Assembly: GCF_004521985.1 (NCBI RefSeq)
Contig: NZ_SBHZ01000009.1
Span: forward strand, 124,001-188,000
DNA: 64,000 nucleotides
Source of the DNA: Ectopseudomonas khazarica
GTDB lineage: Bacteria; Pseudomonadota; Gammaproteobacteria; Pseudomonadales; Pseudomonadaceae
Direction: 5' to 3'
Below the pieces are notes generated by a model. It saw only the letters and a program-made list of their open reading frames with translations, was not told the origin of the DNA and searched no databases. The position numbers and the translations under genes were made by a program. Below are positions 3,345-50,057 of this stretch, piece after piece. Position 1 is the first letter of the stretch; every line of letters begins with the position of its first letter.

Positions 3345-3369
3345 CTCGTTTATTCCACAGAGACAAAGG

Positions 3370-3402
3370 CATCGCCGGCAAGCCGGCTCCTGCGGGCGAT
3401 CA
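3370..3402. repeat. Single REP unit between amiE and the ATPase gene
   Basis: The sequence reads ATCGCCGGCAAGCCGGCTCC followed by TGCGGGCGATCA. Its last three bases form the amiE stop codon on the minus strand. A hairpin here could lower expression of the downstream ATPase relative to amiE. Confidence 0.75.
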
Positions 3403-4443
3403 GCCAGCCGTGCGTTCCTTGCCCGGATGCGGCAGCTCTGCCACCGGGCAGTCGGCCACGCCGATGGTCGAGCGGGTCATCTTCTCCACATCCTCCTGGG
3501 CCTTCTGCGCGTCCAACACCCAGGTGCGGTAGAACTCGAACGGGCAGTCGGCCACGCCCTTGTCGCCATCCCCGGAGTTGTAGACGCCGGTGTAGCCACG
3601 GTGCAGCAGCTTGAACAGGTGGTTCTGCGACTGGTCATTGGCCCGTGCATCGCGGATCTGCGACACCGACAGCTGGGCGTACTGGATGCCCATTTCCTCC
3701 TCGCCGCACTCGCCCAGGGTGCGCCCGTCGAAACCGATCAACGCGGAGTGGCCGAAGTAGCTGTACACACCGTCGAAGCCGCTGGCGTTGGCCACCGCCA
3801 CATAGCAGTTGTTGGCCCAGGCCATGGTCTTGGCCATCAGCACCTGCTGCTCCTTGGCCGGGTACATATAGCCCTGGCAGCGCACGATCAGCTCGGCGCC
3901 CTTCATCGCGCAGTCGCGCCAGATTTCCGGGTAGTTGCCGTCATCGCAGATGATCAGGCTGATCTTCATGCCCTTGGGGCCAGTGGAGACATAGGTGCGG
4001 TCACCCGGATACCAGCCCTCGATGGGGCACCAGGGAATGCACTTGCGGTACTTCTGCACGATCTCGCCCTGGTCATCGATCAGGACGAGGGTGTTGTAGG
4101 GCGCCTTGTGCGGATGCTCTTCGTGGCGCTCGCCAGTGAGCGAGAAGATGCCCCAGGTTTTCGCCTCGCGGCAGGCGGCGGAGAAGATCGCGGTCTCCTC
4201 GCCGGGGATGGCGGCGGCGGTGGCCATCATCTCGTCCCTGTCGTACATGATGCCCATGGTGCTGTACTCGGGGAACACCACCAGGTCCATGCCGGGCAGG
4301 CCGAGCTTCATGCCCTTGATCATCTCGGCGATCTTGCGCGCGTTGTCGAGCACCTCGGCCTTGCTGTGCAGACGCGGCATCTTGTAGTTGACGACAGCAA
4401 CGCCGACGGTATCGGGGCTGCTGGAAATGTCGCCGTGGCGCAT
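3400..4443 (-). CDS. amiE: Aliphatic amidase (acylamide amidohydrolase)
   Basis: AmiE hydrolyses short-chain amides such as acetamide and propionamide to the acid and ammonia in the cytoplasm. The 347-residue protein matches P. aeruginosa AmiE (346 residues) nearly throughout, from MRHGDISSS onward. The nitrilase-superfamily triad is present as Glu59 (VVFPEYS), Lys134 ([10 protein letters not shown]) and Cys166 ([11 protein letters not shown]). The start has an AAGGAG ribosome site. It lies downstream of fmdB and shares the strand of the amide importer, which would feed it substrate. A hairpin repeat lies just upstream (4465-4532). The classical amiC/amiR regulators are not beside it; the two-component pair at 11882-15959 probably replaces them. 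Confidence 0.97.
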
Positions 4444-34531: not shown

Positions 34532-35842
34532 GTGAACGAAGCACTATTTTCCCTGCAAGAACGAATCAATTCAGGAACTGCGGTTGTCGGCATATATGGC
34601 CTCGGCTATGTCGGTCTGCCCCTGGCGCTGCGCTTCTGCGAAGTCGGCGTGAAAGTTATCGGCTTCGACATAGATGCTCGCAAGGTAGATCTCCTGAATA
34701 GTGGGCACAGCTACATCGAGCGATTGACGCCACAGTGCATCGACAAAGCCCTGACTCAGGGGCTTGAGGCCACGACAGACTTTGCGCGCACAGCCGAGGC
34801 GGATGCTCTGATCATCTGCGTACCAACGCCGCTGAACAGCCATCGCGAGCCAGACCTCAGTTTCGTCATCAACACCGTAGAGTCGATACTCCCCCACTTT
34901 CGCCCTGGCCAACTGCTGAGCCTGGAAAGCACTACCTGGCCAGGTACCACGGACGAAGTGCTGGCCCCACGCCTGGCCAACCACGGCTTCATTCCTGGTG
35001 AAAATTGCGCTCTGGTGTTTTCCCCAGAACGCGAAGACCCCGGCAATACCCGCTACGGCACCCATGACATCCCCAAGGTAATTGGCGGCATGACACCAAG
35101 CTGCCTGGAACTTGGCCAGGCCATCTATCGCCGTGCCATTCGCACCCTGGTTCCGGTGAGCAGCACGCGTACAGCAGAGATGACCAAGCTGCTAGAGAAC
35201 ATCCATCGCTCGGTGAACATTGGCCTGGTCAACGAGATGAAGATCGTCGCCGACAAGATGGGCATCGATATACACGAAGTCATTCGCGCTGCGGCAACCA
35301 AGCCCTTCGGCTTCACGCCTTACCAACCGGGTCCGGGTCTCGGCGGTCACTGCATCCCCATCGACCCTTTCTATCTGACCTGGAAGGCCAAGGAATACGG
35401 CATCAACACTCGCTTCATCGAACTGGCCGGTGAGATCAACCATTACATGCCGCACTGGGTCGTACAGAAAACCGCAGACGCCCTCAACGACCATGGCAAG
35501 GCAGTCAAAGGCAGCCGCATTCTGGTGCTGGGCCTGGCCTACAAGAAGAACATCGACGACAGCCGCGAATCGCCGGCCGTGGAGATAATGGAACTCCTGC
35601 AAGGCAAAGGCGCATTGGTCGACTACGCCGACCCGCATATCCCGTGCTTCCCCAAGAAGAGGGATTATCACTTCGACCTGAAGTCCGTACTACTGAATGC
35701 ACAAACCCTAGCACGCTATGACTGTGTGATCCTAACCACCGACCATGACGGATTCGACTACGAACTCCTGCAAAACCAGGCACGCGTGATCGTGGATACG
35801 CGGGGACGATTACCGCGCTCGCCCCATATCATTTCAGCGTGA
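34532..35842 (+). CDS. UDP-N-acetylglucosamine/hexose 6-dehydrogenase (WbpA-like)
   Basis: A 436-residue nucleotide-sugar dehydrogenase that oxidises the C6 hydroxyl of a UDP-sugar with two NAD. It has the Rossmann start [38 protein letters not shown], the active-site Cys274 in [19 protein letters not shown], and the C-terminal domain with [24 protein letters not shown]. It resembles P. aeruginosa WbpA (UDP-GlcNAc 6-dehydrogenase) along its full length. The start is GTG with only a weak ribosome site. First gene of a six-gene plus-strand operon; the next gene, a UDP-GlcNAc 2-epimerase relative, suggests a UDP-ManNAcA or UDP-GlcNAcA product. Confidence 0.9.
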
Positions 35843-35952
35843 ACCTGGAGATGCTCTGCGGAAAACTGAAAACAGCAGACAGACCACCACTTGCCCTGAC
35901 TCTGATTAATCGTTGCCTCGCCCCACTAACCTCCTGCCCCTCGGAGACACTT

Positions 35953-37062
35953 GTGGCACAAAACAAAGATCAAAAGCACTTCGTATTTATTATCGGCACC
36001 CGAGCGCAGCTTATTAAAGTTGCACCAGTAATCGTCGAATGCGAGCAACAAAATTTGCCGTGCACCTTACTGATGACCGGGCAGCATCTAGAAACCATGC
36101 AGGACTTGCTGGCGGAGTTCGGGATAGAAACAGAACAAACCGCTGCGACCACCGCAAAAGAGCATGCCACCGTGCTTTCCCTGATCACATGGCTGCCACG
36201 CGCCTATATGGGAATTATTAAGCAGCTCAAGTCCATAAAACTCAAACCTAAACATATCAATATTCTGGTACATGGCGACACCCTTTCCACAGTACTTGGG
36301 GCCCTGGCAGGACGTCAGCTAGGCGCGTCAGTCGTACACCTGGAGAGCGGCCTAACATCAAAACATATACTCGATCCCTTTCCAGAGGAAATCTCTCGAC
36401 GCATTGTCTTCCGATTGAGCAACATCGCCATGTGCCCTAATTCAGAAACAGAACAGCACATGAGGCTAAAATATCCAAATTGCCAGGCGATAAATACGAA
36501 CGGAAACACAATATTAGATGCAATAAGATTAACCGGCGTTAGTCGTGTCACTCGTCCCCAAGAGTCAAATCACATTGTCGCTTCCCTGCATCGTTTCCAA
36601 AACATCTATGACACCAAGAGACTATCGAAACTAGTAGAACTACTAGAAGAGATCGCAGACACACATACAATTTATTTTGTCTTACACCCAGCAACACGCA
36701 AGCGCCTGGATAAAACAGGGCTTTCCAAGCGCCTAGAAGAACATAAAGGCATCAAATTACTTCCACGCCTAGGTTACAGCGAGTTTCTCCGTTTGGCGGC
36801 CGAATCGGCATGCGTTCTTACAGATGGCGGATCTAATCAGGAAGAATTAGCTGCGCTTGGCGTTCCGACTATCGTGATGCGACAAGCGACGGAGCGCAGT
36901 GACGGGCTTGGCAAGAATGCGATCATGGAGGGTGAGCTCTCCGCCGGCGTGTTCAATTACATCAAAAGAAAAGAATATCGGGCACTTGACTTAGAAAACG
37001 ACGACACACACTTCAAACACCCCTCCAGTCATATAATTGATTATTTAACAAGAACGCCATAG
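35953..37062 (+). CDS. UDP-N-acetylglucosamine 2-epimerase family protein (divergent)
   Basis: The 369-residue protein has the GT-B fold of WecB/WbpI-type epimerases. The order of motifs is kept but altered: GTRAQLIKVAP, VHGDTLS, VVHLESGL, FPEEISRR, NGNTILDAI, ASLHRFQN (canonical HRREN) and TDGGSNQEELAALGVPTIVMRQATERSDG. The Asp, two Glu and His known to matter in E. coli WecB are present. GTG at 35953 with GGAG eight bases before it is preferred. A GTG at 35839 overlapping the previous stop would add 38 residues unlike the family. Its AT-rich codon use contrasts with the chromosomal genes. Confidence 0.8.
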   Translation: MAQNKDQKHFVFIIGTRAQLIKVAPVIVECEQQNLPCTLLMTGQHLETMQDLLAEFGIETEQTAATTAKEHATVLSLITWLPRAYMGIIKQLKSIKLKPKHINILVHGDTLSTVLGALAGRQLGASVVHLESGLTSKHILDPFPEEISRRIVFRLSNIAMCPNSETEQHMRLKYPNCQAINTNGNTILDAIRLTGVSRVTRPQESNHIVASLHRFQNIYDTKRLSKLVELLEEIADTHTIYFVLHPATRKRLDKTGLSKRLEEHKGIKLLPRLGYSEFLRLAAESACVLTDGGSNQEELAALGVPTIVMRQATERSDGLGKNAIMEGELSAGVFNYIKRKEYRALDLENDDTHFKHPSSHIIDYLTRTP

Positions 37063-37177
37063 ACACCAAAATCCTTGACTGGCCTTCGCCTCTTTAGCCT
37101 CAACACTTTTTAATACACAAAGCACCCCACCAAGAAGACTGAAATAGCCAGGCGCCACAGGGAGGCCGGATTAGCAA

Positions 37178-37978
37178 ATGAAGAAGAGCACCCTGCCAAA
37201 TCAAACACACATGCAGTCACTGAAACATGTCAGAAAGCATGAGCTTGATTCTGCACTTGAATACTTCCCACAACTCTCGAGTGGGCAACCGTGCCGTGTG
37301 CTGGAGCTAGGGGCTGGCACTGGCCAGCAGGCACGACACATAAGTGATCTTGGCTATAAAGTATCAGCCCTTGATTTGCCAAGCAGCAGCTACAAAGACG
37401 CACGCCAATTCCACATCGATGAATACGACGGGGAAAACCTACCTTTTGCGGATGAAACATACGATGTCATTTTCAGCTCAAACGTTCTTGAGCATGTCGT
37501 GAGCATCGACAAACTCTTGAGTGAAACCTATCGAACACTTAAGCCTGGCGGCATGGCTATCCACCTGATCCCGTCCCCTGCATGCCGCCTATGGAGCATT
37601 CTTGCGCACTACATATGGCTAATGCGCAGGGTCACATCACGCCTCATGGCATTGACCCAAAACGCCGCAGAAGCCGGCGATGTACCACGCACCCCTCAAT
37701 CTAGGCGTGAGTGGCTTGGAACACTATTTCCACTCCGACACGGTGAGCGCGGAAATACACTGACCGAAACCTACTATTTTTCCAAAATCTACTGGCTTGG
37801 AAAATTTCGATCGAATAATTTCAACGTTCACACAGTCTCAGGCAACGGGCTTTTCTACACTATGGCAAATGCAACCGGGGCAAAACTTTCGATCAACTGC
37901 AGGAAGGCCTTATCCCGCACGCTCGGATCGTCCTGCCTGATCTATGTCATGACAAAAAACGAGAGCAGCCATGCCTAG
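37178..37978 (+). CDS. Class I SAM-dependent methyltransferase
   Basis: A 266-residue Methyltransf_11-type protein. Visible motifs: motif I VLELGAGTGQQARHISDLG, acidic end of strand 2 (SALDLP), and motif III region LPFADETYDVIFSSNVLEHV with the following LKPGGMAIHLIPSP. The C-terminal 100 residues are unlike other domains I know. It starts after a GGAGG-containing leader. Base composition is AT-rich for the genome. It overlaps the FkbM gene by eight bases. The acceptor is likely a sugar in the surface glycan; it cannot be named. Confidence 0.85.
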   Translation: MKKSTLPNQTHMQSLKHVRKHELDSALEYFPQLSSGQPCRVLELGAGTGQQARHISDLGYKVSALDLPSSSYKDARQFHIDEYDGENLPFADETYDVIFSSNVLEHVVSIDKLLSETYRTLKPGGMAIHLIPSPACRLWSILAHYIWLMRRVTSRLMALTQNAAEAGDVPRTPQSRREWLGTLFPLRHGERGNTLTETYYFSKIYWLGKFRSNNFNVHTVSGNGLFYTMANATGAKLSINCRKALSRTLGSSCLIYVMTKNESSHA

Positions 37979-38846
37979 CAATAAAGTCATTTTCCTAGCA
38001 CTCCGCAAGATCGGATTCTGCTTATCTCCGAATGGCAGTCCAAAGTTACCAAAAACTCTCTTGCGCCGCCTGTTTCGTCATGCCCATGGAAGCGTCCAAG
38101 TGAATGACTTCGATGGAGACTTGTCCATGGATCTTGAACTGTCCGAGCATATGCAGCGCCGCATTTTCTGGATGGGCTACTACAGCGAAGATATTGCCCA
38201 TCTGCTAAATGAAACCCTGCAATCCGGCATGACCGTTCTTGATATCGGAGCCAACATCGGCGAGATCACGCTGCTGGCCAGCAAGAGAGTCGGCATGCAG
38301 GGCCAAGTATTCGCCTTCGAGCCCATTGAAAATATCGCACAACAGCTTGAACGTCATGTAGAGATCAATCAGTTCAAACAAACTTATATCGAGCGTCTAG
38401 CGCTAGGCGATGCAACTGATAGTGCCTGCCCGATCTACGCGTCATGCGGACAAATAACTGATGACAATCACAACGGGCTAGGCAGCCTCTATGGCGGCAA
38501 TAATGGTGAAAGCCCGGTGCAGTACATCAGGATGACAACCCTTGACAACTGGATCACCAATCACCCCTCAATCCAGCGCATTGATCTCATCAAGATCGAT
38601 ATTGAAGGTGCCGAGTTGGCCTGCCTGCATGGCGCAAGGGATACGTTGCTACGCTTCAGGCCGCGCCTCATTGTCGAAATCCAGGACTTCTCCGCAAGCC
38701 GTGCCGGCCATCCATCTACCGATATCCTCGATTTCCTGTCTGAGCTTGGCTACCGCTTCCAGAGCATCGGTAAGAATGGATCACTGACACCGCTAACCAC
38801 AAGCAATCTGACCAGCTTCCAGAACGTGTTCTGCACTCCGACATGA
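37971..38846 (+). CDS. FkbM-family methyltransferase
   Basis: The 291-residue protein holds the FkbM domain: TVLDIGANIGEITLLASKRVG (SAM motif I), VFAFEPIENIAQQLERHVEIN, MTTLDNWI, and IDLIKIDIEGAELACLHGARDTL with LIVEIQ. FkbM enzymes O-methylate sugars or polyketides; in a glycan operon a sugar is the likely acceptor. It overlaps both neighbours by a few bases (37971-37978 and 38843-38846), showing tight coupling. Confidence 0.9.
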   Translation: MPSNKVIFLALRKIGFCLSPNGSPKLPKTLLRRLFRHAHGSVQVNDFDGDLSMDLELSEHMQRRIFWMGYYSEDIAHLLNETLQSGMTVLDIGANIGEITLLASKRVGMQGQVFAFEPIENIAQQLERHVEINQFKQTYIERLALGDATDSACPIYASCGQITDDNHNGLGSLYGGNNGESPVQYIRMTTLDNWITNHPSIQRIDLIKIDIEGAELACLHGARDTLLRFRPRLIVEIQDFSASRAGHPSTDILDFLSELGYRFQSIGKNGSLTPLTTSNLTSFQNVFCTPT

Positions 38847-39979
38847 CTGCATCACAAAAGCGCATGCAACTATGGCTCCTGCTCAGTCGATTTGAGCAGG
38901 GTGGGTTGGAGCGTGTACAAGCCAACCTTGCCCCGGAGCTGAAAAACTCCGGTATTGATGTATCCATTGTTTCTGGCACATTCGCCCCCGGGTCAGAGAC
39001 ATTACTACCTGAAGGCATCCCTACGCTGGAGATTGCCGCAAACGACAAGTGGATGTTCATTCCCGGCCTGTTGCGTCAACTACGCAAGCACAAACCCGAC
39101 GTAGTGATGACTACATCCAATGATGTCGCCTGCCTGCTGTTATTATTTCGCTCGCTGCTGTTTCCAAGCATGAAGGTGATTTGTACGCAGCACTTGTCTG
39201 TGTCTGCCCCATGGAAAAAAGCCAGCGGTCTTCAGCGACTCAAACACCGCCTATTGATCGGAATGATGCGCGCCCTGTGGCCGAAAGCCGATGCTCTCGT
39301 CGCTGTCTGCGACGCGCTGGCCGACGATATGCGCCGCGCACTGGAGCTGCGCGCCCCCATTCACGTCATTCACAACCCAGTAGTGCTGCCTGACTTTGCA
39401 CAACAGATGCAGAAACCTATCCAGTGGCCATGGCCCGATACCTCGGTGCCAACCCTTGTTTTCAGCGGTCGCCTTGCCAAAGTGAAACGGCTCGATCTAC
39501 TACTTGAAGCCTTTTCCTTGGTCACCCGGAACATTGCCGCCCGCCTGCTGATCCTCGGTGACGGGCCAGAGCGAGAACAGATTCTGGCGCTTATTGAAAA
39601 GAATGACTTGCACCATGCATGCCGACTGGTCGGCCACCACCCCAACCCTCTGCCCTGGATTCAGGCCTCCGACATTCTGATACTGCCCTCCGACTATGAA
39701 GGCTTTGGCAATGTTCTGGTGGAGGCCATGGCCTGCGGCGTTCAGGTCATCGCCACAGATTGCCCCCACGGCCCGGCTGAAATCCTTGGCCACGGTCAGT
39801 ACGGCCAGCTTGTTCCCACCGGCCAGGCCGAGGCCCTGAGCCATGCCATTCAGCGGAGCCTGTCCAAAGCATTTCATGTACCTGCTGCCGAACTCATACA
39901 ACGCGCGAATGCTTTCACGCTACAGCGCGCGTCAAGCGCCTACCTGCGCCTGATCCAAGAAACCTCCAATCGGCAATAA
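38843..39979 (+). CDS. Glycosyltransferase family 4 protein, first
   Basis: A 378-residue retaining GT-B glycosyltransferase. It has N-terminal LLSRFEQGGLERVQANLA, a C-terminal donor domain VFSGRLAKVKRLDLLLEAF and LLILGDGPEREQILALIE, and the EX7E motif in PSDYEGFGNVLVEAMACGVQVIATDCPHGPAEIL. Starts with ATG overlapping the FkbM stop. Similar in type to transferases that extend lipid-linked oligosaccharides; donor and acceptor are unknown. Confidence 0.9.
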   Translation: MTASQKRMQLWLLLSRFEQGGLERVQANLAPELKNSGIDVSIVSGTFAPGSETLLPEGIPTLEIAANDKWMFIPGLLRQLRKHKPDVVMTTSNDVACLLLLFRSLLFPSMKVICTQHLSVSAPWKKASGLQRLKHRLLIGMMRALWPKADALVAVCDALADDMRRALELRAPIHVIHNPVVLPDFAQQMQKPIQWPWPDTSVPTLVFSGRLAKVKRLDLLLEAFSLVTRNIAARLLILGDGPEREQILALIEKNDLHHACRLVGHHPNPLPWIQASDILILPSDYEGFGNVLVEAMACGVQVIATDCPHGPAEILGHGQYGQLVPTGQAEALSHAIQRSLSKAFHVPAAELIQRANAFTLQRASSAYLRLIQETSNRQ

Positions 39980-39983
39980 CCGC

Positions 39984-41114
39984 ATGCGCATCGCCTTTCT
40001 CTGCAAACGCCACTACACGGGCAAAGACGTGATCCATGACCGTTACGGTAGACTCTACGAACTACCAGGCCAGTTGAACCGGCTCGGGCACGATGTACAG
40101 GCATGGTGCCTTGACTATCGCGGCTACCGGGATGAGGAGCAGCAACATGACCTGACAACAAACCAGGCAATGTGCTGGAACTCCCGCGCCACACGCGGGA
40201 TGCGAGTAGCGCATCTCCCGACCTACCCACTGCATCTGCTCAAGCAACTAGACACCTTCAGGCCTGACCTACTGATCGGTGCCTCCGACATTCCACACGT
40301 TGCACTGAGCGTCTGGTTAAGCCGGCAGCGTGGCCTGCCCTGTGCGATTGATCTGTATGACAACTTCGAAAGCTTTGGGCAGGCACGTATTCCAGGCTTT
40401 CACCGCCTTCTGAGATACGCCATTCGCAACGCCGACCTGATCGTTACCGTCAGTCAGGCGCTGCGCGAGAAGATCCAGCGCGACCACAAACCACATGCCC
40501 CTGTACAGGTCATGCCCAACGGCATCAATGCCAGCACCTTTGCCCCCGGCTCTCGCAGCGCCGCACGCCAGCTGCTGGGGTTGCCATTGACAGCGCCGCT
40601 TATTGGCACCGCCGGCGGCCTCTCGCGCATGAAAGGGATAGATACCCTCTACGCTGCCTGGCAGCAACTACAGCAGGTACGCCCTGAGCTGCAGCTGGTA
40701 CTTGCCGGGCCACGCGAAAAAAACCTGCCGCTGCCGATCGGGTCGCGCGTTCACTACCTTGGCGAGTTAGCTGAAACGCAGGTAGCTACACTATTTCGCG
40801 CACTGGACGTTGGCGTCATCACCGTACAGGACTCCCCTTTCGGGCGTTACTGCTTCCCGCAAAAAGCCAGCGAAATGCTGGCCTGCCGACTACCGATAGT
40901 GGCTTCAAACGTTGGGGAAATGGCCCATCTACTTGCATCCTCACCCCAGGCATTGTTCACCCCGGACAATCCACACGCACTGGCGATGACCGTACTGAAC
41001 CAACTGGACGCGCCCTGCCTGTCGCCCTCCCCCGCACTGAACTGGAATGATCTGGTGAAGGCACTCGAACCTGCGCTTGAACGATTGGAGCAATCGTACT
41101 CAAGGGAGCACTGA
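39984..41114 (+). CDS. Glycosyltransferase family 4 protein, second
   Basis: A 376-residue GT-B protein with N-terminal MRIAFLCKRHYTGKDVI, a mid region ADLIVTVSQALREKIQ and VQVMPNGINASTFAPG, and a donor domain GTAGGLSRMKGIDTLYAAW and LQLVLAGPREKN. The usual EX7E is weak (SPFGRYCFPQKASEMLACRLPIVAS), as in several GT4 subfamilies. It follows the previous gene after four bases and its 3' end overlaps the convergent flippase gene by 15 bases. Last gene of the plus-strand glycan operon. Confidence 0.88.
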   Translation: MRIAFLCKRHYTGKDVIHDRYGRLYELPGQLNRLGHDVQAWCLDYRGYRDEEQQHDLTTNQAMCWNSRATRGMRVAHLPTYPLHLLKQLDTFRPDLLIGASDIPHVALSVWLSRQRGLPCAIDLYDNFESFGQARIPGFHRLLRYAIRNADLIVTVSQALREKIQRDHKPHAPVQVMPNGINASTFAPGSRSAARQLLGLPLTAPLIGTAGGLSRMKGIDTLYAAWQQLQQVRPELQLVLAGPREKNLPLPIGSRVHYLGELAETQVATLFRALDVGVITVQDSPFGRYCFPQKASEMLACRLPIVASNVGEMAHLLASSPQALFTPDNPHALAMTVLNQLDAPCLSPSPALNWNDLVKALEPALERLEQSYSREH

Positions 41115-42365
41115 TCTACTGTCTTTATGGGAGACGCCTCGTTGAACCCGCAGCACCACCCAACCACCCAATAACGCCATTGCCCATTCGGAACATGCCA
41201 GTGCCAAAGCCATGCCACGCATGCCCCAATAGGTCGTCAACAGGATGGCCGCCACGCTCAATACCACCAGGCCTGCCACCTCAAACCTCACCCTCATCCA
41301 AGGCTTACTCAGTGCCATCAGCGCGTTGCCCGCCGCGATACGGAGCGTCATACCGGGCACGGCAAGACACAACCAACGAATCACCTCCTCCACCCCTTGG
41401 TATTTTTCGCCAAGCAACCAGGCAAATAGCGGAGCACACCACCACAGCGCTACCGCCAGTCCCACACCGTAAATAGCTGTAGCGCCGAAGATCCACCGTA
41501 ACAAGCGCGCGGTACGCTGCGGCTGGTCCTGCCCTTCGCGAAACAAGCGGGGCAATGCCGACAACATCAAGGCAACCACCGGCAACGTGACTGCCCCCAC
41601 CACGCGCGCCCCTGCGGCGTACAAGCCCGCAGCAGGCAAGGGTAGCAGTCTGATAGACAGAGTCTTGTCCAACTCCGCAGGCACAGTTGCCGTAATGTTG
41701 AGTGCAGCATAACTGGCCGCCTCACGCAGCTCCGGCCCGCTGGGTCGGCGCCACAGGCGCAGCTGTGGCCAGCGTCGCGGGAGGCAGCCCAGCACCAGCA
41801 GAAATCCAATCGCGGTCGCCACACAATAGCCATAGCCATAGACCGTCAGTGGGTCTGCCGGTGCCAACCAGGCAACCAGGGCGGCAGCCACCAGGCGCAA
41901 CGCCAGCGGTAGCGTCTGCAGCAACTGAGAACGCGCCGTATGTTCGGCCGCCAGCACCTCCATCACCACCAGCGCCGACAACGGTATCAGCAGCATCTCT
42001 GCCACGCCAAGTGCCAGCAGCACGCCCCACCCCACGCCACTGGCATGCAGCAGCTGGGTGCAAATCAGTACAAAGACAATTAGCAGCGCGCCGCCACATA
42101 GCAAAGTGGTCGGCAAGGCATACGGCAACACCTGCGCACGCCTAGCCGGGTCTTTGGACAGGGCGCCCAATAACACCAAGTGTGTACCAAAGGTAGACAG
42201 CGCTCCCAACATCACTGCCAGTGCAGCAACTCCTGCAAAGGCCCCAAATTGCTCAGGACCAAGCATCCGGGCCACCAGCAGCAAGGTACCGGCCTGCACA
42301 ACCAGGCGCACCCCCAACACAGCACTGGTGCGCAGGGTGCCTAAAGCGATGGGGCCTTTGAACAT
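41100..42365 (-). CDS. Polysaccharide flippase, Wzx type
   Basis: A 421-residue polytopic membrane protein with about 12 hydrophobic segments and the MATE/MVF-like start GTLRTSAVLGVRLVVQAGTLLLVARMLGPEQFGAFAGVAAL, which marks Wzx/RfbX flippases that move undecaprenyl-diphosphate-linked oligosaccharides across the inner membrane. It probably handles the glycan made by the plus-strand operon with which it converges. Its start has no strong ribosome site. It is separated from the minus-strand pilA group by a gene remnant. Confidence 0.85.
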   Translation of the reverse strand: MFKGPIALGTLRTSAVLGVRLVVQAGTLLLVARMLGPEQFGAFAGVAALAVMLGALSTFGTHLVLLGALSKDPARRAQVLPYALPTTLLCGGALLIVFVLICTQLLHASGVGWGVLLALGVAEMLLIPLSALVVMEVLAAEHTARSQLLQTLPLALRLVAAALVAWLAPADPLTVYGYGYCVATAIGFLLVLGCLPRRWPQLRLWRRPSGPELREAASYAALNITATVPAELDKTLSIRLLPLPAAGLYAAGARVVGAVTLPVVALMLSALPRLFREGQDQPQRTARLLRWIFGATAIYGVGLAVALWWCAPLFAWLLGEKYQGVEEVIRWLCLAVPGMTLRIAAGNALMALSKPWMRVRFEVAGLVVLSVAAILLTTYWGMRGMALALACSEWAMALLGGWVVLRVQRGVSHKDSRSVLP

Positions 42366-42628: not shown

Positions 42629-43480
42629 TCAACCCTTGTCCTTGTACATCAGCGCCGTGATCTGCTCCGAAATCAGCCCCATCAAAAACACCATCACCGC
42701 CCCGCTATAGAGCAAGGCGCTCATATTGGTGAAGCGGCCAAAACTGTAAAGCGTATAGCCATACCAACCCGAGGCCAGCATCAACATAGTCAAGGCCACT
42801 GGCGCAAATATCTTTAATGGCGAATACAAAGTACCGATCTTGAAGATGATCAACAAAAAACGGGTGCCATCACGTAACAGGCGGATATGGCTTTTGCCGA
42901 TACGCTGGGCAGCGTGAATCGGTACATAAGCCACCGAATAACCCGCCCGAAAAAAAGCCATGGTGCTGGTGGTGGGGTAAGAGAAGCCGTTGGGTAACAG
43001 GTAAAGAAACTCGCGAAACTTATCTGCCCGAACAGCCCGAAAGCCGGACGTGAGATCTTCGACACGGTGCCCGGTCATCCAACTGGCGAGCTTGTTGTAA
43101 AAGCCATTGGCCAAGCCACGACCTAAGCTGGCCTGTGACCCTTTCTGACGCGCGCCCACAACCATGTCGTGCCCCTCCTCGATCAATTCCAGCAGGCGGG
43201 AAACATCAGCAGGGTCATGCTGACCATCGGCATCCATAAATACAATGATCTCGCCACTCGCTGCCCGCGCCCCGGCCTTGATCGCCGCGCCATTACCCTT
43301 GCTATAGGGATGATGGACCACCGTGGCGCCAGCAGCTTCGGCAACCGCTGCCGTACCATCAGTGGAGCCATCATTGACCACTATCACCTCCGCATGTGGG
43401 CAGTGCTGGCGAATGCCGACCACCGTTGCACCAATTGCCAAGGCTTCGTTCTTGGCGGGAAGGACAATACTGATCATCAT
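42629..43480 (-). CDS. GT2 glycosyltransferase of the polyprenyl-phosphate sugar synthase type
   Basis: The 283-residue protein has the GT-A start ISIVLPAKNEALAIGATV, VIVVNDGSTDGT, the metal-binding motif FMDADGQHDP and SGFRAVRADKF. Two hydrophobic C-terminal helices follow (APVALTMLMLASGWYGYTLY, SALLYSGAVMVFLMGLISEQITALMY). This layout matches DPM1/GtrB-type enzymes that load a sugar onto undecaprenyl phosphate. The start overlaps the stop of the TfpW-like gene by four bases, so the two are coupled. It probably supplies the lipid-linked sugar for that membrane transferase. Confidence 0.88.
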   Translation of the reverse strand: MMISIVLPAKNEALAIGATVVGIRQHCPHAEVIVVNDGSTDGTAAVAEAAGATVVHHPYSKGNGAAIKAGARAASGEIIVFMDADGQHDPADVSRLLELIEEGHDMVVGARQKGSQASLGRGLANGFYNKLASWMTGHRVEDLTSGFRAVRADKFREFLYLLPNGFSYPTTSTMAFFRAGYSVAYVPIHAAQRIGKSHIRLLRDGTRFLLIIFKIGTLYSPLKIFAPVALTMLMLASGWYGYTLYSFGRFTNMSALLYSGAVMVFLMGLISEQITALMYKDKG

Positions 43481-45414
43481 GGAGCTTCCGTGGCAGTGTT
43501 CTTGGTTTTCATAGCCTCTCTCAAGGCACCTTCCAGATATGCTATATCCTGCTCATAGGACATACGAGAACGCTTCAGTTTGCGTGAGTCTTGCTGTGCA
43601 AGTACTTGAGTGGCCTGCTCCAGCAACTCTAGCGCCTTTTCCGGATATCCGGCACTCCCCATTTCCGCAACCATGGCAAGCGCTGCATCGGCTTCCTGAT
43701 AGCGGCTTATTGCCTGACTGTAATACCTATAGGCCTCTGCAGCATCGCCAATATGCAGATACAGCTGGGCACGTAGGTAGGCCACCAGACGCATAAACAA
43801 CGGAAACTCACCGTACGCGGGGCTGCTTTCCATCGTATCCAGCAAATTTAGGCTATAGTGCGCGTAGTCGAGAGAATTGCTTGCAGCATCTCCACCCGTC
43901 ACACGCTCTACCAGAGTACGTATACCCTTCACCGTCTGCGCATCGAATTCCTGCAATTTTAGGCGCTCACCTGCCTGGATAAAGTCCTGCTCACTGGCTT
44001 GCCCTACCCATACTTTCTGCAACAGCAGACGAGCAGTTAATAGAGAGCTTTGCGGCAAACGTCGGCTCGCTGCCAAGAGATACTCATTGGCCTTTTCATA
44101 GTCGCCATTATTCAAGTAGTGGGCCGCCAGTGCGTTGATAGCTCGTGGCGAGTTGGTAGCCGACTGAACCCAATAAAACTCTAACTTGTCGTTATCACTC
44201 CATAGCGATGCGCGCAACCAAGTCATGGACGCGAGAATACCAAGCACGACAACGGCCAGCGCCGGCAACAGCTTGAAACGAGCACTGTAAATGACGCAGT
44301 AATAGGCCAACGGCAGAAACAGAAACAGCGACGCCAGATGGTTGCGGTGCTCGAAGTACAACTCTAGCCCAACGACAGTGGATTCCATCAAGTGGGAGGC
44401 AAAGAAGAACAGTAAACCCAGACTAATCAATGGTGCCTTTTTACGAATAGCAAAAGTGACTGCCAGCAGAGCCACAAGAAAAGCAATGGCAAAGAAAGTG
44501 CTGACCGGCTCGAACAAGCCCTTGGAAATGACATAGCCATCCTGATAAAGGCCGTTGCCTTCAATTCTCGGCACGAACAAATGCAGTAGATACTCGCAGA
44601 CAATTCGGGCCTCGGTCAGTAAACGCTCAATCTGATTAAAATTTCGATTGGGCCAGGGATTATCCGAAAAATCGATATAGCGGGCCAGGAGCGCGGCCAC
44701 AGCCAGCGAAGGCAGCCAGAGAAACAGGGCACGCCACTGCCACGCGGGCCTCCCCTCTCTCGGCAGGCAAAACTCGATCACCAGAACCAGCAAAGGCAGC
44801 AGCGCACCATTTTCCTTACTGAAAGTAGCCAGAAAAGTTCCAGCCACCAGGCCCAAGCTCATAAAAATATATGCACGTCGCGGGCGCATCGACAACTGCA
44901 ACCGGCCATATAAATACATAACGACCCCAGCCAGGCAGAACAGCGTCGCCAGTTGCGCCATACGCTGCACCACATAAAGAATGGTAGATACCATATATGG
45001 GTGCAGCACCCACAGGGCACAAGCCAGAACAGCGATATATTGAGCCTGTTTTTCACCAACACGCTTAAGGTTGCGTAGGAGCAGCAAGGTGGCCCAGCAC
45101 AGCAGCAGACCGCATAAAACATGAATCAGTAAATTGGTTTGTTTAAACCAGGGAGCTTGACTAGGCCAGGCATTATCGTCCAATAGAAAAGTGACCAATG
45201 CCAAAGGACGCCCAGTAGGCCCAGCAAAGCCGCTGAATACGTAGGCCCTGAAGGTTTCCCAATCAACCACACCACCCAGATCCCCTAAGTGCTGGAGATT
45301 GGGGTAATCATCAAACAAAAAGCCCCCTGACATTCCTGGAGAGTAAACAAAGTAAGCAGCAATCAAAATTAAAAAATAGCAAAGCGATGGAGTCGCAATA
45401 CTAGCAGAGCGCAT
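43477..45414 (-). CDS. TfpW/TMTC-like membrane glycosyltransferase with C-terminal TPR repeats
   Basis: The 645-residue protein has about 11 hydrophobic segments up to residue 415. The first external loop carries GGFLFDDYPNLQHLG, the acidic pair expected for GT-C enzymes, then GPTGRPLALVTFLLD. The remaining 220 residues are helical repeats of TPR type (AINALAAHYLNNGDYEKANEYLLAASRRLP). The architecture resembles eukaryotic TMTC O-mannosyltransferases and TfpW, the pilin transferase encoded next to pilA in some P. aeruginosa. Its position directly behind pilA supports pilin as target. ATG at 45414 with GGAGAGGAAG is preferred, because the earlier ATG at 45444 lies in the pilA terminator. AT-rich. 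Confidence 0.75.
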   Translation of the reverse strand: MRSASIATPSLCYFLILIAAYFVYSPGMSGGFLFDDYPNLQHLGDLGGVVDWETFRAYVFSGFAGPTGRPLALVTFLLDDNAWPSQAPWFKQTNLLIHVLCGLLLCWATLLLLRNLKRVGEKQAQYIAVLACALWVLHPYMVSTILYVVQRMAQLATLFCLAGVVMYLYGRLQLSMRPRRAYIFMSLGLVAGTFLATFSKENGALLPLLVLVIEFCLPREGRPAWQWRALFLWLPSLAVAALLARYIDFSDNPWPNRNFNQIERLLTEARIVCEYLLHLFVPRIEGNGLYQDGYVISKGLFEPVSTFFAIAFLVALLAVTFAIRKKAPLISLGLLFFFASHLMESTVVGLELYFEHRNHLASLFLFLPLAYYCVIYSARFKLLPALAVVVLGILASMTWLRASLWSDNDKLEFYWVQSATNSPRAINALAAHYLNNGDYEKANEYLLAASRRLPQSSLLTARLLLQKVWVGQASEQDFIQAGERLKLQEFDAQTVKGIRTLVERVTGGDAASNSLDYAHYSLNLLDTMESSPAYGEFPLFMRLVAYLRAQLYLHIGDAAEAYRYYSQAISRYQEADAALAMVAEMGSAGYPEKALELLEQATQVLAQQDSRKLKRSRMSYEQDIAYLEGALREAMKTKNTATEAP

Positions 45415-45424
45415 ACTTCCTCTC

Positions 45425-45454
45425 CAAAACAAAACTGCCCGCAAAAGCGGGCAG
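45425..45454 (-). terminator. Rho-independent terminator behind pilA
   Basis: Minus strand: CTGCCCGC-TTTT-GCGGGCAG followed by TTTTGTTTT. It lies 20 bases past the pilA stop and just before the TfpW-like gene, which explains how abundant pilA mRNA can be separated from a rare downstream transcript. Confidence 0.9.
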
Positions 45455-45474
45455 TAAGCACCTACGACTAAAGA

Positions 45475-45918
45475 TTAGCGGCAAGAGCTCGGCAGGTACT
45501 TGGCATCGATACCGTTGGTAGCACCCGCTTTGCACTTCCAAGTAACGGCGCCAGTGCTAGTAGTCGGGCTCAGCGCCAAAGTCTTACTAGCGAGACCGCT
45601 GGCAACACCAGAGCCTTTCATAGTCGCAGTGATCAAACCATTGGCGCCCACCGCAACACTGTTGACGTAGTTACCGGAGATAGAGGTGTCGGCAGCCAGA
45701 CCAGCCAGGGCATTAGTGGTCGGCATAGCCCCTTTGCTGGTCCAGTACTCGGTTACAGCGGTGCGAGCACCACCAGCCAGGCTCAGAGCTTCCGATACTT
45801 GCGAACGCGCGGTGTAGTCCTGGTAGGCAGGCAGGGCGATGGCAGCCAGGATACCAATGATGGCGACCACGATCATCAGTTCAATCAGGGTGAAGCCTTT
45901 TTGCAGTTGAGCTTTCAT
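45475..45918 (-). CDS. pilA: Type IV major pilin PilA
   Basis: The 147-residue prepilin has an eight-residue leader ending in Gly, cleavage before Phe, [27 protein letters not shown] as the N-terminal helix with Glu5 of the mature protein (shown as its parts), and a C-terminal disulfide loop Cys129-Cys146 ending SSCR. The mature form is about 139 residues. PilD (49188) would process it. It is divergent from pilB and preceded by a sigma-54 promoter. The C-terminus is not the Ser-ended type used by TfpO, which fits the presence of a different transferase next door. Confidence 0.97.
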
Positions 45919-45963: not shown

Positions 45964-45980
45964 AAGCAGGTTGCATGCCA
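45964..45980 (-). promoter_or_regulatory. Sigma-54 (RpoN) promoter of pilA
   Basis: On the minus strand TGGCATgcaacCTGCTT gives GG and GC at the required ten-base spacing, 46-62 bases upstream of the pilA ATG. Pseudomonas pilA is known to need RpoN and PilSR; PilR sites would lie within 45985-46100, not resolved here. Confidence 0.8.
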
Positions 45981-46237: not shown

Positions 46238-46263
46238 GTCAGGCATTGTGTTTGGAGCACGTG

Positions 46264-47967
46264 ATGAACGAAAGCATTTCCCTTTCCGGCCTGGCGAGAC
46301 AGCTTGCCCTGGCCGGCCTCATGGACGAGAAAGCAGCCCAGCAGGCTCAGCAGCAGGCCCAGCGCAACAAATTGCCGCTGGTGACCTATCTTGTGCAGAA
46401 CAAGCTGGTTAAAAGTCGCGCCTTGGCTGAATTGGCTGCTGAGCAGTTCGGGGTGGCGTTCTTTGACCTGAACGCTATCGACAAAGAAGGGCAACCGCGT
46501 GACCTTGTTACCGAGAAACTAGTACGCCAACATCGCGTGCTGCCTCTGTGGCGGCGCGGCAACAAGTTGTTCATAGGCATCTCCGACCCCACCAGCCACC
46601 AGGCGGTCACTGACGTACAGTTCAGTACAGGCCTGACCACCGAAGCAATTTTGGTCGAGGACGACAAGCTCGGCGACGCCATCGACAAGTTCTTCGATTC
46701 TGCCAATAGCGGAATGGACGACCTTGCCGACGTAGATCTCGATGGCCTAGATGTCGAGGTCGTCGACGACGACAAACAGTCTGGTGACGCTGGAGCAGAT
46801 GCTGATGACGCCCCCGTTGTGCGCTTCGTCAACAAGATGCTGCTTGATGCCATCAAAGGAGGCTCCTCGGACCTGCACTTCGAGCCTTACGAAAAAGCCT
46901 ATCGAGTGCGCTTTCGTACCGATGGGATGCTCCACGAGGTCGCTCGCCCCCCCATCCAGTTGGCACCACGAATCTCAGCACGCCTCAAGGTAATGGCCGC
47001 ACTGGATATCTCCGAGCGGCGCAAACCGCAGGACGGCCGCATCAAGATGAAGATATCCAAGACCAAGGCCATCGACTTCCGCGTCAACACACTGCCCACT
47101 CTGTGGGGTGAGAAAATCGTGATGCGGATTCTCGACCCCACCAGCGCACAGATGGGTATCGATGCCCTGGGTTATGAGGAAGAGCAGAAGGAGCTATACC
47201 TCAGCGCCCTCAAGCAACCGCAAGGCATGATTCTGGTTACAGGCCCCACCGGTTCGGGCAAGACCGTCTCGCTCTATACCGGGCTGAATATCCTCAACAC
47301 TCCGGACGTGAACATCTCGACCGCGGAAGACCCGGTCGAGATCAACCTCGAGGGTATCAACCAAGTCAACGTCAATCCCAAACAGGGCATGGACTTCACC
47401 CAAGCCTTGCGTGCGTTCCTGCGCCAGGACCCGGACATCATCATGGTGGGCGAGATCCGTGACCTCGACACCGCCTCCATCGCCGTCAAGGCCGCACAGA
47501 CCGGACACATGGTGATGTCCACCCTACACACCAACAGCGCAGCGGAAACCCTGACTCGCCTGCGCAACATGGGCGTGCCCTCGTTCAACATCGCCACCTC
47601 GGTCAACCTGATCATCGCCCAGCGCCTGGCACGCAAGCTGTGCAGCACCTGCAAAAAAGAAGTCGACGTACCACGCGATACCCTGCTGGCCGAAGGTTTC
47701 CCCGAAGACAAGATCGGCACCTTCAAGATCTACGGCCCGGTTGGCTGCGATAATTGCAAGGGCGGCTACAAGGGTCGTGTCGGTATTTATGAAGTGGTTA
47801 AAAACACGGCCAACCTGCAGCGGATTATCATGGAGGAAGGCAACTCCATCGATATCGCCACACAGATGCGTAAAGACGGCTTTAATGATCTACGCACCTC
47901 CGCTTTGCTCAAGGCCATGCAAGGGGTTACCAGCCTTGAGGAAGTCAACCGCGTGACCAAGGATTAA
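46264..47967 (+). CDS. pilB: Type IV pilus extension ATPase PilB
   Basis: PilB powers pilus polymerisation at the inner-membrane base. The 567-residue protein has N-terminal MshEN-type domains (from MNESISLSGLARQLALAGL), then a core with Walker A GPTGSGKTVSLY, the Asp box ISTAEDPVEINLEG, Walker B IIMVGEIRDLDTA, the His box GHMVMSTLHTNSA and a tetracysteine zinc site (LCSTCKK ... GCDNCKGGY). The MshEN segment is a c-di-GMP-binding fold in related ATPases. ATG at 46264 matches P. aeruginosa PilB; an upstream ATG adds six residues. Followed by pilC after two bases. Confidence 0.97.
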   Translation: MNESISLSGLARQLALAGLMDEKAAQQAQQQAQRNKLPLVTYLVQNKLVKSRALAELAAEQFGVAFFDLNAIDKEGQPRDLVTEKLVRQHRVLPLWRRGNKLFIGISDPTSHQAVTDVQFSTGLTTEAILVEDDKLGDAIDKFFDSANSGMDDLADVDLDGLDVEVVDDDKQSGDAGADADDAPVVRFVNKMLLDAIKGGSSDLHFEPYEKAYRVRFRTDGMLHEVARPPIQLAPRISARLKVMAALDISERRKPQDGRIKMKISKTKAIDFRVNTLPTLWGEKIVMRILDPTSAQMGIDALGYEEEQKELYLSALKQPQGMILVTGPTGSGKTVSLYTGLNILNTPDVNISTAEDPVEINLEGINQVNVNPKQGMDFTQALRAFLRQDPDIIMVGEIRDLDTASIAVKAAQTGHMVMSTLHTNSAAETLTRLRNMGVPSFNIATSVNLIIAQRLARKLCSTCKKEVDVPRDTLLAEGFPEDKIGTFKIYGPVGCDNCKGGYKGRVGIYEVVKNTANLQRIIMEEGNSIDIATQMRKDGFNDLRTSALLKAMQGVTSLEEVNRVTKD

Positions 47968-47969
47968 CC

Positions 47970-49187
47970 ATGGCGGAAAAAGCTCTAAAAACCAGCGCGT
48001 TCAAGTGGGAAGGCAAAGATCGACGCGGCGCCGCCGTCAAGGGCGTCATGAATGGCCAGAATCCTGCGTTGGTCAAGGCACAGCTGCGCAAGCAGGGTAT
48101 CAACCCGACCAAGGTGCGCAAGGAATCTTCTCTGTCCTTCGGCAAGGGCAAGAAGGTCAAGCCGATGGATATCGCCCTGTTTACCCGACAGATGGCGACC
48201 ATGATGAAGGCCGGCGTACCACTACTGCAGTCTTTCGACATCATCTCCGAAGGGTTCGACAACCCAAACATGCGCAAGCTGGTGGACGAGGTGAAGCAGG
48301 AGGTGGCTGCAGGCAACAGCTTCGCGGCCTCGCTACGCAAGAAGCCCGAGTACTTCGACGAACTTTACTGCAACTTGGTGGAATCTGGCGAACAGGCCGG
48401 TGCCTTGGAAAACCTGCTGGATCGTATCGCCACCTACAAGGAAAAGACAGAGGCACTCAAAGCCAAGATCAAGAAGGCAATGAACTACCCCATAGCTGTA
48501 GTCGTGGTAGCTGTCATCGTATCTGCGATATTGCTAATCAAAGTTGTCCCTCAGTTTGAAGAGGTCTTCGCAAACTTTGGCGCAGAGCTTCCTGCCTTTA
48601 CCCTTATGGTCATTGGAATATCTCAAGTTCTTCAAAAATGGTGGTTCATATTCCTAATCGGCATCTTCGCTACAGCTTTTGCGTTCAAAGAGGCGATAAA
48701 ACGCTCCCAAAAGCTTCGAGATTCGATAGACCGAGGCGTGCTAAAGCTGCCTATCGTTGGCGACATCCTTTACAAATCTGCTGTAGCACGCTTCGCACGC
48801 ACATTGTCCACTACATTTGCGGCTGGCGTACCGTTAGTAGATGCGCTGGACTCTGTTGCCGGAGCAACCGGCAATATCGTATTCAAGAATGCCACCAATA
48901 AAATCAAGGCGGATGTTTCAACCGGCATGCAATTGAACTTCTCCATGCGCACTACTGGAACGTTCCCCAGCATGGCCATCCAAATGACCGCGATTGGTGA
49001 GGAGTCTGGCTCGCTGGATGAAATGTTGGACAAGGTCGCCAGTTTCTATGAAGCAGAGGTGGACAACATGGTCGACGGCCTCACCAGCTTGATGGAACCC
49101 ATCATCATGTCCGTACTGGGTGTGCTAGTTGGCGGCCTGATCATCGCCATGTACCTGCCAATCTTCCAGTTGGGCTCTGTGGTCTAA
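47970..49187 (+). CDS. pilC: Type IV pilus inner-membrane platform protein PilC
   Basis: PilC is the polytopic platform protein with two GspF domains of the pilus motor. Of 405 residues, hydrophobic helices lie near 175-200, 220-245 and 375-400. The motifs FTRQMATMMKAGVPLLQSFDII and FARTLSTTFAAGVPLVDALDSVAG mark the two repeats. Codon use changes inside the gene: about 48484-48960 is distinctly AT-richer (ATA, TTG, CTA, AAA, GTT) than both flanks, suggesting a recombinant patch. The next gene follows directly. Confidence 0.97.
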   Translation: MAEKALKTSAFKWEGKDRRGAAVKGVMNGQNPALVKAQLRKQGINPTKVRKESSLSFGKGKKVKPMDIALFTRQMATMMKAGVPLLQSFDIISEGFDNPNMRKLVDEVKQEVAAGNSFAASLRKKPEYFDELYCNLVESGEQAGALENLLDRIATYKEKTEALKAKIKKAMNYPIAVVVVAVIVSAILLIKVVPQFEEVFANFGAELPAFTLMVIGISQVLQKWWFIFLIGIFATAFAFKEAIKRSQKLRDSIDRGVLKLPIVGDILYKSAVARFARTLSTTFAAGVPLVDALDSVAGATGNIVFKNATNKIKADVSTGMQLNFSMRTTGTFPSMAIQMTAIGEESGSLDEMLDKVASFYEAEVDNMVDGLTSLMEPIIMSVLGVLVGGLIIAMYLPIFQLGSVV

Positions 49188-50057
49188 ATGCTCATTGTCG
49201 ACTTTCTGGCCAGCCATGCGCTGGCCTTTATTTTGTGTGTTGTCCTACTTGGCTTGCTGGTAGGCAGCTTCCTCAACGTCGTGATCTACCGTCTGCCGAA
49301 GATGCTTCAACGCGACTGGCAAGCCCAGGCCCGCGAGGTGCTGGAGATGCCACCGGTACCTCAAGCAGAGACATTCAACCTGGTGCTGCCCAATTCCTGC
49401 TGCCCGCAATGCGGCCATGAGATAAAGCCCTGGGAGAACGTGCCGGTCATCAGCTACCTGTTCCTGCGTGGCAAATGCTCGAACTGCAAGACGCCCATCA
49501 GCAAGCGCTACCCTCTGGTGGAGCTGGCCTGCGGCGTGCTGTCCGGCTATATCGCCTGGCACTTCGGTTTCACCTGGCAGACCGGCGCCATGCTGGCGCT
49601 GACCTGGGGCCTGCTGGCGATGAGCCTGATCGACGCCGACCACCAGATCCTGCCGGACATTCTGGTACTGCCGCTGCTGTGGCTGGGCCTGATCGTCAAC
49701 TGCTTCGGCCTGTTCACCAGCCTGGAAGACGCACTCTGGGGCGCCATTGCCGGCTACCTGAGCCTGTGGTCGGTGTACTGGCTGTTCAAGCTGGTCACCG
49801 GCAAGGAAGGCATGGGCTACGGCGACTTCAAGCTCCTGGCGATGCTTGGCGCCTGGGGTGGCTGGCAGATTCTGCCGCTGACCATCCTCCTGTCTTCGCT
49901 GGTTGGCGCGGTGCTTGGCGTGATCCTGCTGCGCATGCGCGGCAGCGACTCCAGCACGCCGATGCCCTTCGGCCCCTATCTGGCCATTGCCGGCTGGATC
50001 GCGCTGCTGTGGGGCGATGTGATTACCGGCAGCTACCTGAAGTTCGCCGGCTTCTAG
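49188..50057 (+). CDS. pilD: Prepilin peptidase / N-methyltransferase PilD
   Basis: PilD cleaves and N-methylates type IV prepilins and type II secretion pseudopilins. The 289-residue protein has the N-terminal domain with GSFLNVVIYRLPKML, the two CxxC pairs CPQCGHE and CSNCKTP, and the aspartic protease motifs LIDADHQILPD and GYGDFKL. The start codon follows the pilC stop directly. High-GC codon use returns in this gene. Confidence 0.97.
   Translation: MLIVDFLASHALAFILCVVLLGLLVGSFLNVVIYRLPKMLQRDWQAQAREVLEMPPVPQAETFNLVLPNSCCPQCGHEIKPWENVPVISYLFLRGKCSNCKTPISKRYPLVELACGVLSGYIAWHFGFTWQTGAMLALTWGLLAMSLIDADHQILPDILVLPLLWLGLIVNCFGLFTSLEDALWGAIAGYLSLWSVYWLFKLVTGKEGMGYGDFKLLAMLGAWGGWQILPLTILLSSLVGAVLGVILLRMRGSDSSTPMPFGPYLAIAGWIALLWGDVITGSYLKFAGF

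Follow-up and report, generated by a model that had tools for sequence, protein, structure and literature searches.

A candidate TfpW-related pilin glycosylation cassette with its own GT2 donor module behind pilA of Ectopseudomonas khazarica

What do the two genes that follow the major pilin gene of Ectopseudomonas khazarica do, and is the pilin their substrate? The window analysed here is a stretch of 64,000 nucleotides of contig NZ_SBHZ01000009.1 (assembly GCF_004521985.1, positions 124,001 to 188,000), and the locus in question lies on its minus strand. It comprises pilA (45475..45918), which encodes a major type IV pilin of 147 amino acids and the presumed acceptor (Pfam Pilin 1.2e-28, N_methyl 6.6e-10); an intrinsic terminator (45434..45455), read from the sequence as a hairpin with a 9-bp stem followed by TTTGTTTT; a gene for a TfpW-related glycosyltransferase of the GT-C type with 645 amino acids (43477..45414); and a gene for a predicted polyprenyl-phosphate sugar synthase of family GT2 with 283 amino acids (42629..43480; PF00535 4.1e-32), the start of which shares four bases (ATGA) with the end of the GT-C gene. 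With a mechanically assigned TTG start, the GT-C open reading frame (ORF) would span 43477-45444; the ATG at 45414, with the purine-rich GGAGAGG ahead of it, is the likelier start. An earlier note, made from the letters alone, had given the order of the three genes, their strand, the overlap and the coordinates of the unit, all of which agree with the ORFs and Pfam matches, and had proposed a candidate pilin glycosylation unit; the terminator and the divergent pilBCD genes described below are additions to it. We likewise read pilA, GT-C and GT2 as a TfpW-related pilin glycosylation cassette with GT2 as the donor module, and put the probability of this reading, drawn from sequence comparison and structure models, at about 0.78. 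Its basis is the gene order and its wide conservation, the predicted folds, the homology to TfpW, the co-divergence of GT-C and pilin, and the lack of a divergent UbiA in this genome.

The predicted model of the GT-C protein (40 sequences; pLDDT 93, pTM 0.91) consists of a membrane domain (residues ~1-415) and a helical domain (~418-640). In a structural comparison of this model the membrane domain matched Stt3 (Z 18.7, 317 residues, root-mean-square deviation 4.7), Pmt4 (Z 17.4), ALG12 (Z 16.8) and AftD (Z 14.2), with the reservation, which counts against our reading, that a Z of about 14 is possible between unrelated helical models; the helical domain resembled tetratricopeptide repeat (TPR) proteins. 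The clear GT-C fold match emerged from this second comparison and not from the ranking by Foldseek, in which TPR and other helical-repeat proteins came top and an oligosaccharyltransferase stood at rank 27. As modelled, the window protein has a GT-C membrane fold with an acidic pair in the first loop. The DD that the earlier note had placed there is D35-D36, behind helix 1, and is invariant both in a 40-row set, together with R69, H98, W135, P139, Q150, R151, K200, E201, R257, R264, Y275, S345, L350, H356, R357 and S422, and in a 19-row set that includes TfpW-type rows, together with R69, F76, P139, R151, K200, E201, Y275, P282 and W405. The C-terminal repeats that it had noticed are TPRs (TPR_14 28.6 bits, cut-off 23.5).

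No GT-C family model in Pfam reached its threshold with the window protein or 19 members of its family, the matches being mostly to TPR models, and no GT-C family model in NCBIfam reached threshold with the window protein. What we take to be the Pfam models of TMTC, Wzy_C and PglL were missing as well, the first from the matches of the 19 members to E 0.1 and the other two from those of the window protein and the 19 members. Membership of the TMTC group, to which the earlier note had likened the protein, was therefore dropped, the likeness being architectural only (GT-C plus TPR). A weak match to DUF6056 was seen in one of the 19 members (E 0.029). The TfpO/PglL O-oligosaccharyltransferases also represent pilin glycosylation encoded behind pilA, but TfpO is described as adding O-antigen units (PMC11841053), and the window GT-C lacks the corresponding domain matches.

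The fold and the invariant residues also bear on the explanation that the GT-C protein serves in pilus assembly and transfers no sugar, similar to the TfpY group. Such a role would suit its position in a pilin-accessory cassette, and group III and V pilins, which occur with TfpY and TfpZ, are reported to be unmodified (PMC11841053). A GT-C fold with an invariant DD and other invariant polar residues, and the usual presence of a GT2 partner, argue against this explanation, which we consider the least probable of those weighed here.

TfpW, the pilin arabinosyltransferase of P. paraeruginosa, belongs to the group IV pilin cassette (PMC12369383). The GT-C protein encoded behind pilA in genome G126 was presumed to be TfpW, and this protein and its relative in genome G335 made up a two-row TfpW profile. 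The window GT-C is 27.7% identical to the presumed TfpW in a local match, and hhalign of the GT-C family against the two-row profile gave a probability of 99.1 and an E-value of 4.2e-19 over 546 columns with 19% identity, which bears out the TfpW-like label of the earlier note. These alignments make the GT-C a distant homologue of TfpW over the full length. The two share the GT-C type, a C-terminal TPR-like region and their position, the window gene being located directly behind pilA, after the terminator and beside pilB-pilC-pilD. They differ in the low identity and in the location of the donor genes, as the arabinose genes, including ubiA, are described as lying elsewhere, in RGP80 (PMC12369383), whereas the window cassette carries its own GT2.

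For the GT2 protein, the best structural matches of the model (pLDDT 88) were ArnC, GtrB and DPMS, and sequence comparison gave ArnC (2.9e-13) and DPMS (6.7e-11); the two C-terminal helices of the earlier note lie at residues 222-247 and 252-279 of the model. With a GT2 domain and C-terminal membrane helices, the modelled protein has the fold of polyprenyl-phosphate glycosyltransferases. Its best NCBIfam match, AglJ, scored 121.7 bits against a cut-off of 325, far too low for the sugar to be named. Assignment of a sugar from the neighbouring genes was dropped, WecB-like genes behind GT2 being found in a cluster of 12 of 113 next-gene ORFs. Comparable pairs are mycobacterial Ppm1 with PMT and streptococcal PgfS with PgfM, in which a lipid-monophosphate sugar synthase and a GT-C enzyme glycosylate exported proteins; their acceptors are different, and the window GT2 scored 61 bits with the PgfS model, the cut-off of which is 500. 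In the three-component Gtr and pentofuranose systems a lipid-phosphate-sugar synthase also supplies an extracytoplasmic GT-C, but these are described as modifying polysaccharides and as including a flippase gene (PMC11127046), which was not recognised by eye here.

Would the cassette then use the same sugar as TfpW? A divergent UbiA was taken as proxy marker for the D-arabinofuranose donor route, which also includes the DprE steps. This marker was found in both TfpW-type genomes (G126, 1.4e-22; G335, 8.4e-20) and not in the E. khazarica genome, in which the scan gave three ordinary UbiA-family matches only, and the cassette is for this reason classed as TfpW-related and not as TfpW. Among 16 further genomes carrying the GT-C/GT2 pair, the divergent UbiA was present in four (G048, G038, G035, and G084) and absent from 12, so that the marker is not exclusive to the TfpW type; a 17th genome in the scan, G047, carries pilA and GT-C without GT2 and was not counted among the pair carriers. 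Since the cassette is read as having a GT2 donor module, its sugar probably differs from D-arabinofuranose. The contrast between E. khazarica and the TfpW-type genomes speaks indirectly for the different pilin sugar suggested by the earlier note, and the four pair carriers with the marker speak against it. These four genomes, and the full-length homology to the presumed TfpW, would also fit the explanation that GT-C is a TfpW-type arabinosyltransferase, that the pilin bears D-arabinofuranose and that GT2 serves something else; with the marker missing from E. khazarica and most other pair carriers, and with GT2 and GT-C linked by their gene overlap and by their co-occurrence, we regard this as very improbable.

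In G335, genes for a HAD-fused UbiA, a FAD-binding protein, an SDR and an LPG_synthase_TM protein adjoin the pilin cassette; the stretch L260 6465-15349 of this genome holds pilA and two GT-C genes, one TfpW-like and the other of PMT_2 type, beside these arabinose-type donor route genes. PF04030 (ALO) was dropped as a marker of the arabinose route after matching 11 of 19 genomes, including both E. khazarica and G126; in G126 the match is at 6.31 Mb, away from the divergent UbiA at 6.46 Mb, and its neighbours looked unrelated by eye.

The gene order was then followed in other genomes. In a sample of 398 Pseudomonadaceae genomes, GT-C matches were obtained in 20, including the weak ones in G047, G126 and G335, and GT2 orthologues (E < 1e-100) in 18, those of the 17 further genomes being 61-92% identical to the window protein. 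GT-C was also found in 17 of these 18 genomes, and in the remaining one (G051) the contig ends 550 bp upstream of GT2. All 16 family loci with both genes and full upstream DNA (15 and the window) have the order pilA-GT-C-GT2, and the 4-bp overlap recurs in 10 of them. Beyond the family, named genomes were scanned with GT2 and the best 80 of at least 558 confirmed relatives were taken; 53 of the 80 loci have a GT-C scoring above 150 bits in the stretch examined and 16 more have pilB, pilC or pilD. A motif search of the 57 GT2-selected loci with at least 2.5 kb visible upstream of GT-C (16 family, 41 named) revealed a pilin-type ORF within 2.5 kb upstream on the same strand in 49, and within 410 bp in 46 of these.

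Selection by GT-C gave a similar picture. Relatives (E up to 1e-20) occur in 109 of 369 genomes of the class, of which 60 loci were examined (the best match of each genome, in order of genome handles up to G601, leaving out G000, G431 with a broken frame, G575, G576, G593, and G600). A pilin lies within 2.5 kb upstream in 33 of 42 loci with at least 2 kb of upstream DNA (32 of the 33 within 210 bp), and GT2 within 2.5 kb downstream on the same strand in 38 of 48 loci with at least 2 kb visible downstream; in the rest GT2 is elsewhere in the stretch examined (three) or not seen there (seven). As control, other ORFs of at least 300 amino acids from these loci were examined for a pilin in the corresponding position, and 4 of 133 had one. 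The pair is thus not consistently found away from pilins, a pattern that the earlier note had named as telling against a pilin glycosylation unit. As the two surveys overlap in some genomes (L151 and L230 being one such case), they are not fully independent.

The terminator behind the pilin recurs as well. Among 49 loci with pilin and GT-C no more than 600 bp apart (a different 49 from the pilin-positive GT2-selected loci), 42, the window included, have a terminator-like hairpin within 90 bp past the pilin stop, compared to 39 of 245 controls obtained by dinucleotide shuffling of these stretches; past the GT-C stop such a hairpin was seen in 2 of 49. Pilin-accessory cassettes are described as commonly having a terminator behind the pilin (PMC11841053). 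The terminator is expected to attenuate the downstream genes, and would probably hold the enzymes at levels far under that of the pilin.

Pairwise distances of the proteins, with the pilin represented by its globular part, were compared by Mantel tests. For 14 Pseudomonadaceae loci with PilB, pilin and GT-C distances correlated with r 0.84, and with 0.80 given PilB and 0.81 given GT2 (p 0.0002 in each case, the floor of the test); the values were 0.63 and, given PilB, 0.59 for 29 loci with PilB, and 0.46 and, given GT2, 0.44 for all 52 loci. Pilin and GT2 given GT-C yielded -0.15 (n=14) and -0.06 (n=52). In one genome (G337, locus L061) PilB and GT2 are 93% and 89% identical to those of the window, while GT-C is 29% and two pilins are 44 and 48% identical, as if pilin and GT-C had been swapped jointly and GT2 retained. 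The two pilins of this locus stand in tandem ahead of GT-C (3051-3998).

Several observations weigh against our reading. In three family loci with weaker GT-Cs (L068, L069, and L070) pilA and GT-C occur without GT2; 11 of the 80 GT2 loci have neither GT-C nor pilBCD in the stretch examined, some being cut by contig ends; no pilin was seen upstream in 8 of the 57 GT2-selected loci (L091, L099, L108, L111, L113, L115, L120, and L151) and 9 of the 42 GT-C-selected ones, so that the acceptor is probably a different one in part of the family; and both partners are in place in 23 of 35 GT-C-selected loci visible on both sides. Pilin and GT2 are also positively correlated when uncorrected (r 0.40, n=14; 0.17, n=52), and the power to detect such a correlation is lower for GT2, which evolves slowly. 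Linkage alone could yield part of the correlation between pilin and GT-C, and the co-divergence therefore supports, and does not prove, a specificity of enzyme for acceptor.

The loci without a pilin are also what would be seen if the pair decorated a polysaccharide, be it O antigen or exopolysaccharide, or secreted proteins other than the pilin, and owed its place beside the pil genes to a site where glycan clusters are common. Genes of glycan type behind GT2 further favour this, 31 of the 113 next-gene ORFs falling into one cluster judged GT4-like by eye and 12 into the cluster containing the WecB-like genes, and in the window a WecC/WecB/methyltransferase/GT4 cluster with a Wzx-like flippase adjoins the cassette. 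In contrast, no glycan gene accompanies the pair nearly as constantly as the pilin does, the terminator layout is that of a pilin cassette, GT-C divergence follows the globular part of the pilin, and GT-C is homologous to TfpW; this explanation thus appears unlikely to us.

A cassette acting on the pilin would work as follows. GT2, judging from its family and fold, would charge undecaprenyl phosphate at the cytoplasmic face with one sugar, taken from a nucleotide sugar, and the lipid-phosphate sugar would be flipped across the membrane. No recurrent flippase was recognised by eye among clusters of ORFs (at least 100 amino acids) found in at least 8 of 101 loci, which is a further point against the cassette as we read it; a Wzx-like cluster is present in 19 of the 101 (clusters judged by eye, no profile scan). 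At the periplasmic face, GT-C would transfer the sugar to Ser or Thr of membrane-anchored PilA before assembly, as its fold, invariant DD and homology to TfpW suggest, and its TPR domain, which would be periplasmic, probably helps to hold the pilin. Prediction of the glycosylation site from a pilin alignment was dropped, as the hydroxyl residues of the variable part that reappear in close relatives could not be distinguished from ordinary pilin conservation. In an Acinetobacter, a glycan at the last pilin residue has been reported from cryo-electron microscopy and compared to TfpO (PMC10980823).

The glycosylation unit proposed in the earlier note is thus supported by gene order, by linkage to the pilin compared to the control and by homology to TfpW, which, and not TMTC, is the demonstrated relative. 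Having a donor module unlike that of TfpW, the cassette would be a variant form of known pilin glycosylation, apparently a widespread one, and a pilA-GT-C-GT2 cassette of this kind was not found described in searches of the open-licence PMC literature. Pilin glycosylation by TfpO and TfpW reportedly defends P. aeruginosa against phages that target pili (PMC11841053), and by analogy the likely role of the cassette is to shield pili from pilus-binding phages. We further speculate, with the chances evenly balanced, that it represents a third, so far undescribed class of pilin glycosylation, perhaps wider spread than TfpO or TfpW, in which the conserved GT2 fixes the sugar, GT-C with its TPRs evolves fast and is exchanged jointly with the pilin, and the pair forms a swappable phage-masking pilin coat across the Gammaproteobacteria (in the GTDB sense, including the former Betaproteobacteria). 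If the cassette acts as proposed, glycosylated pili would be commoner than the described systems suggest, in a family of mostly pilin-adjacent proteins found in 109 class genomes without a GT-C family model above Pfam threshold, and each cassette would offer a natural enzyme-acceptor pair for studies of acceptor recognition.

Some loci differ in layout. In L068 (4170-6281, genome G047) pilA is followed by a shorter GT-C relative of 548 amino acids, with no GT2 seen, and in L064 (6381-6749) a pilin-like ORF sits between GT-C and GT2. Two or three tandem GT-C copies precede GT2 in L076, L085, L091, L108, L111, L115, L120, L132, L143 and L145, with a pilin upstream in L132, L143 and L145 and none seen in the rest, which include loci truncated by contig ends. 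In L151 (6907-9977) GT-C overlaps an oxaloacetate decarboxylase beta-subunit gene at the end of the latter; GT2 lies downstream, and the stretch examined shows no pilin upstream. Four Xanthomonadales loci (L088, L105, L106, and L123) have GT2 divergent from pilB and pilA-GT-C 2-7 kb off on the other strand, and thus the same gene set in a different layout. A near-match search located none on plasmids, and PADLOC gave no match to E 0.01.

Divergent from the cassette and outside the glycosylation unit, the window carries ORFs that we take, from position and from sequence read by eye, to be the core pilus assembly genes pilB-pilC-pilD (46246..50057, plus strand); pilBCD are kept beside the cassette in the Pseudomonadaceae neighbourhoods compared (20, with L067 and L071 cut by contig ends). 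Upstream of pilA, TGGCATGCAACCTGCT (45965-45980, minus strand) resembles a sigma-54 promoter, as expected for pilA. The polysaccharide cluster adjoining the cassette spans 34532-42365, is low in G+C (0.486 at 36-38 kb) and encodes a WecC-like dehydrogenase, a WecB-like epimerase, a methyltransferase, an FkbM methyltransferase, two GT4s and a convergent Wzx-like flippase.

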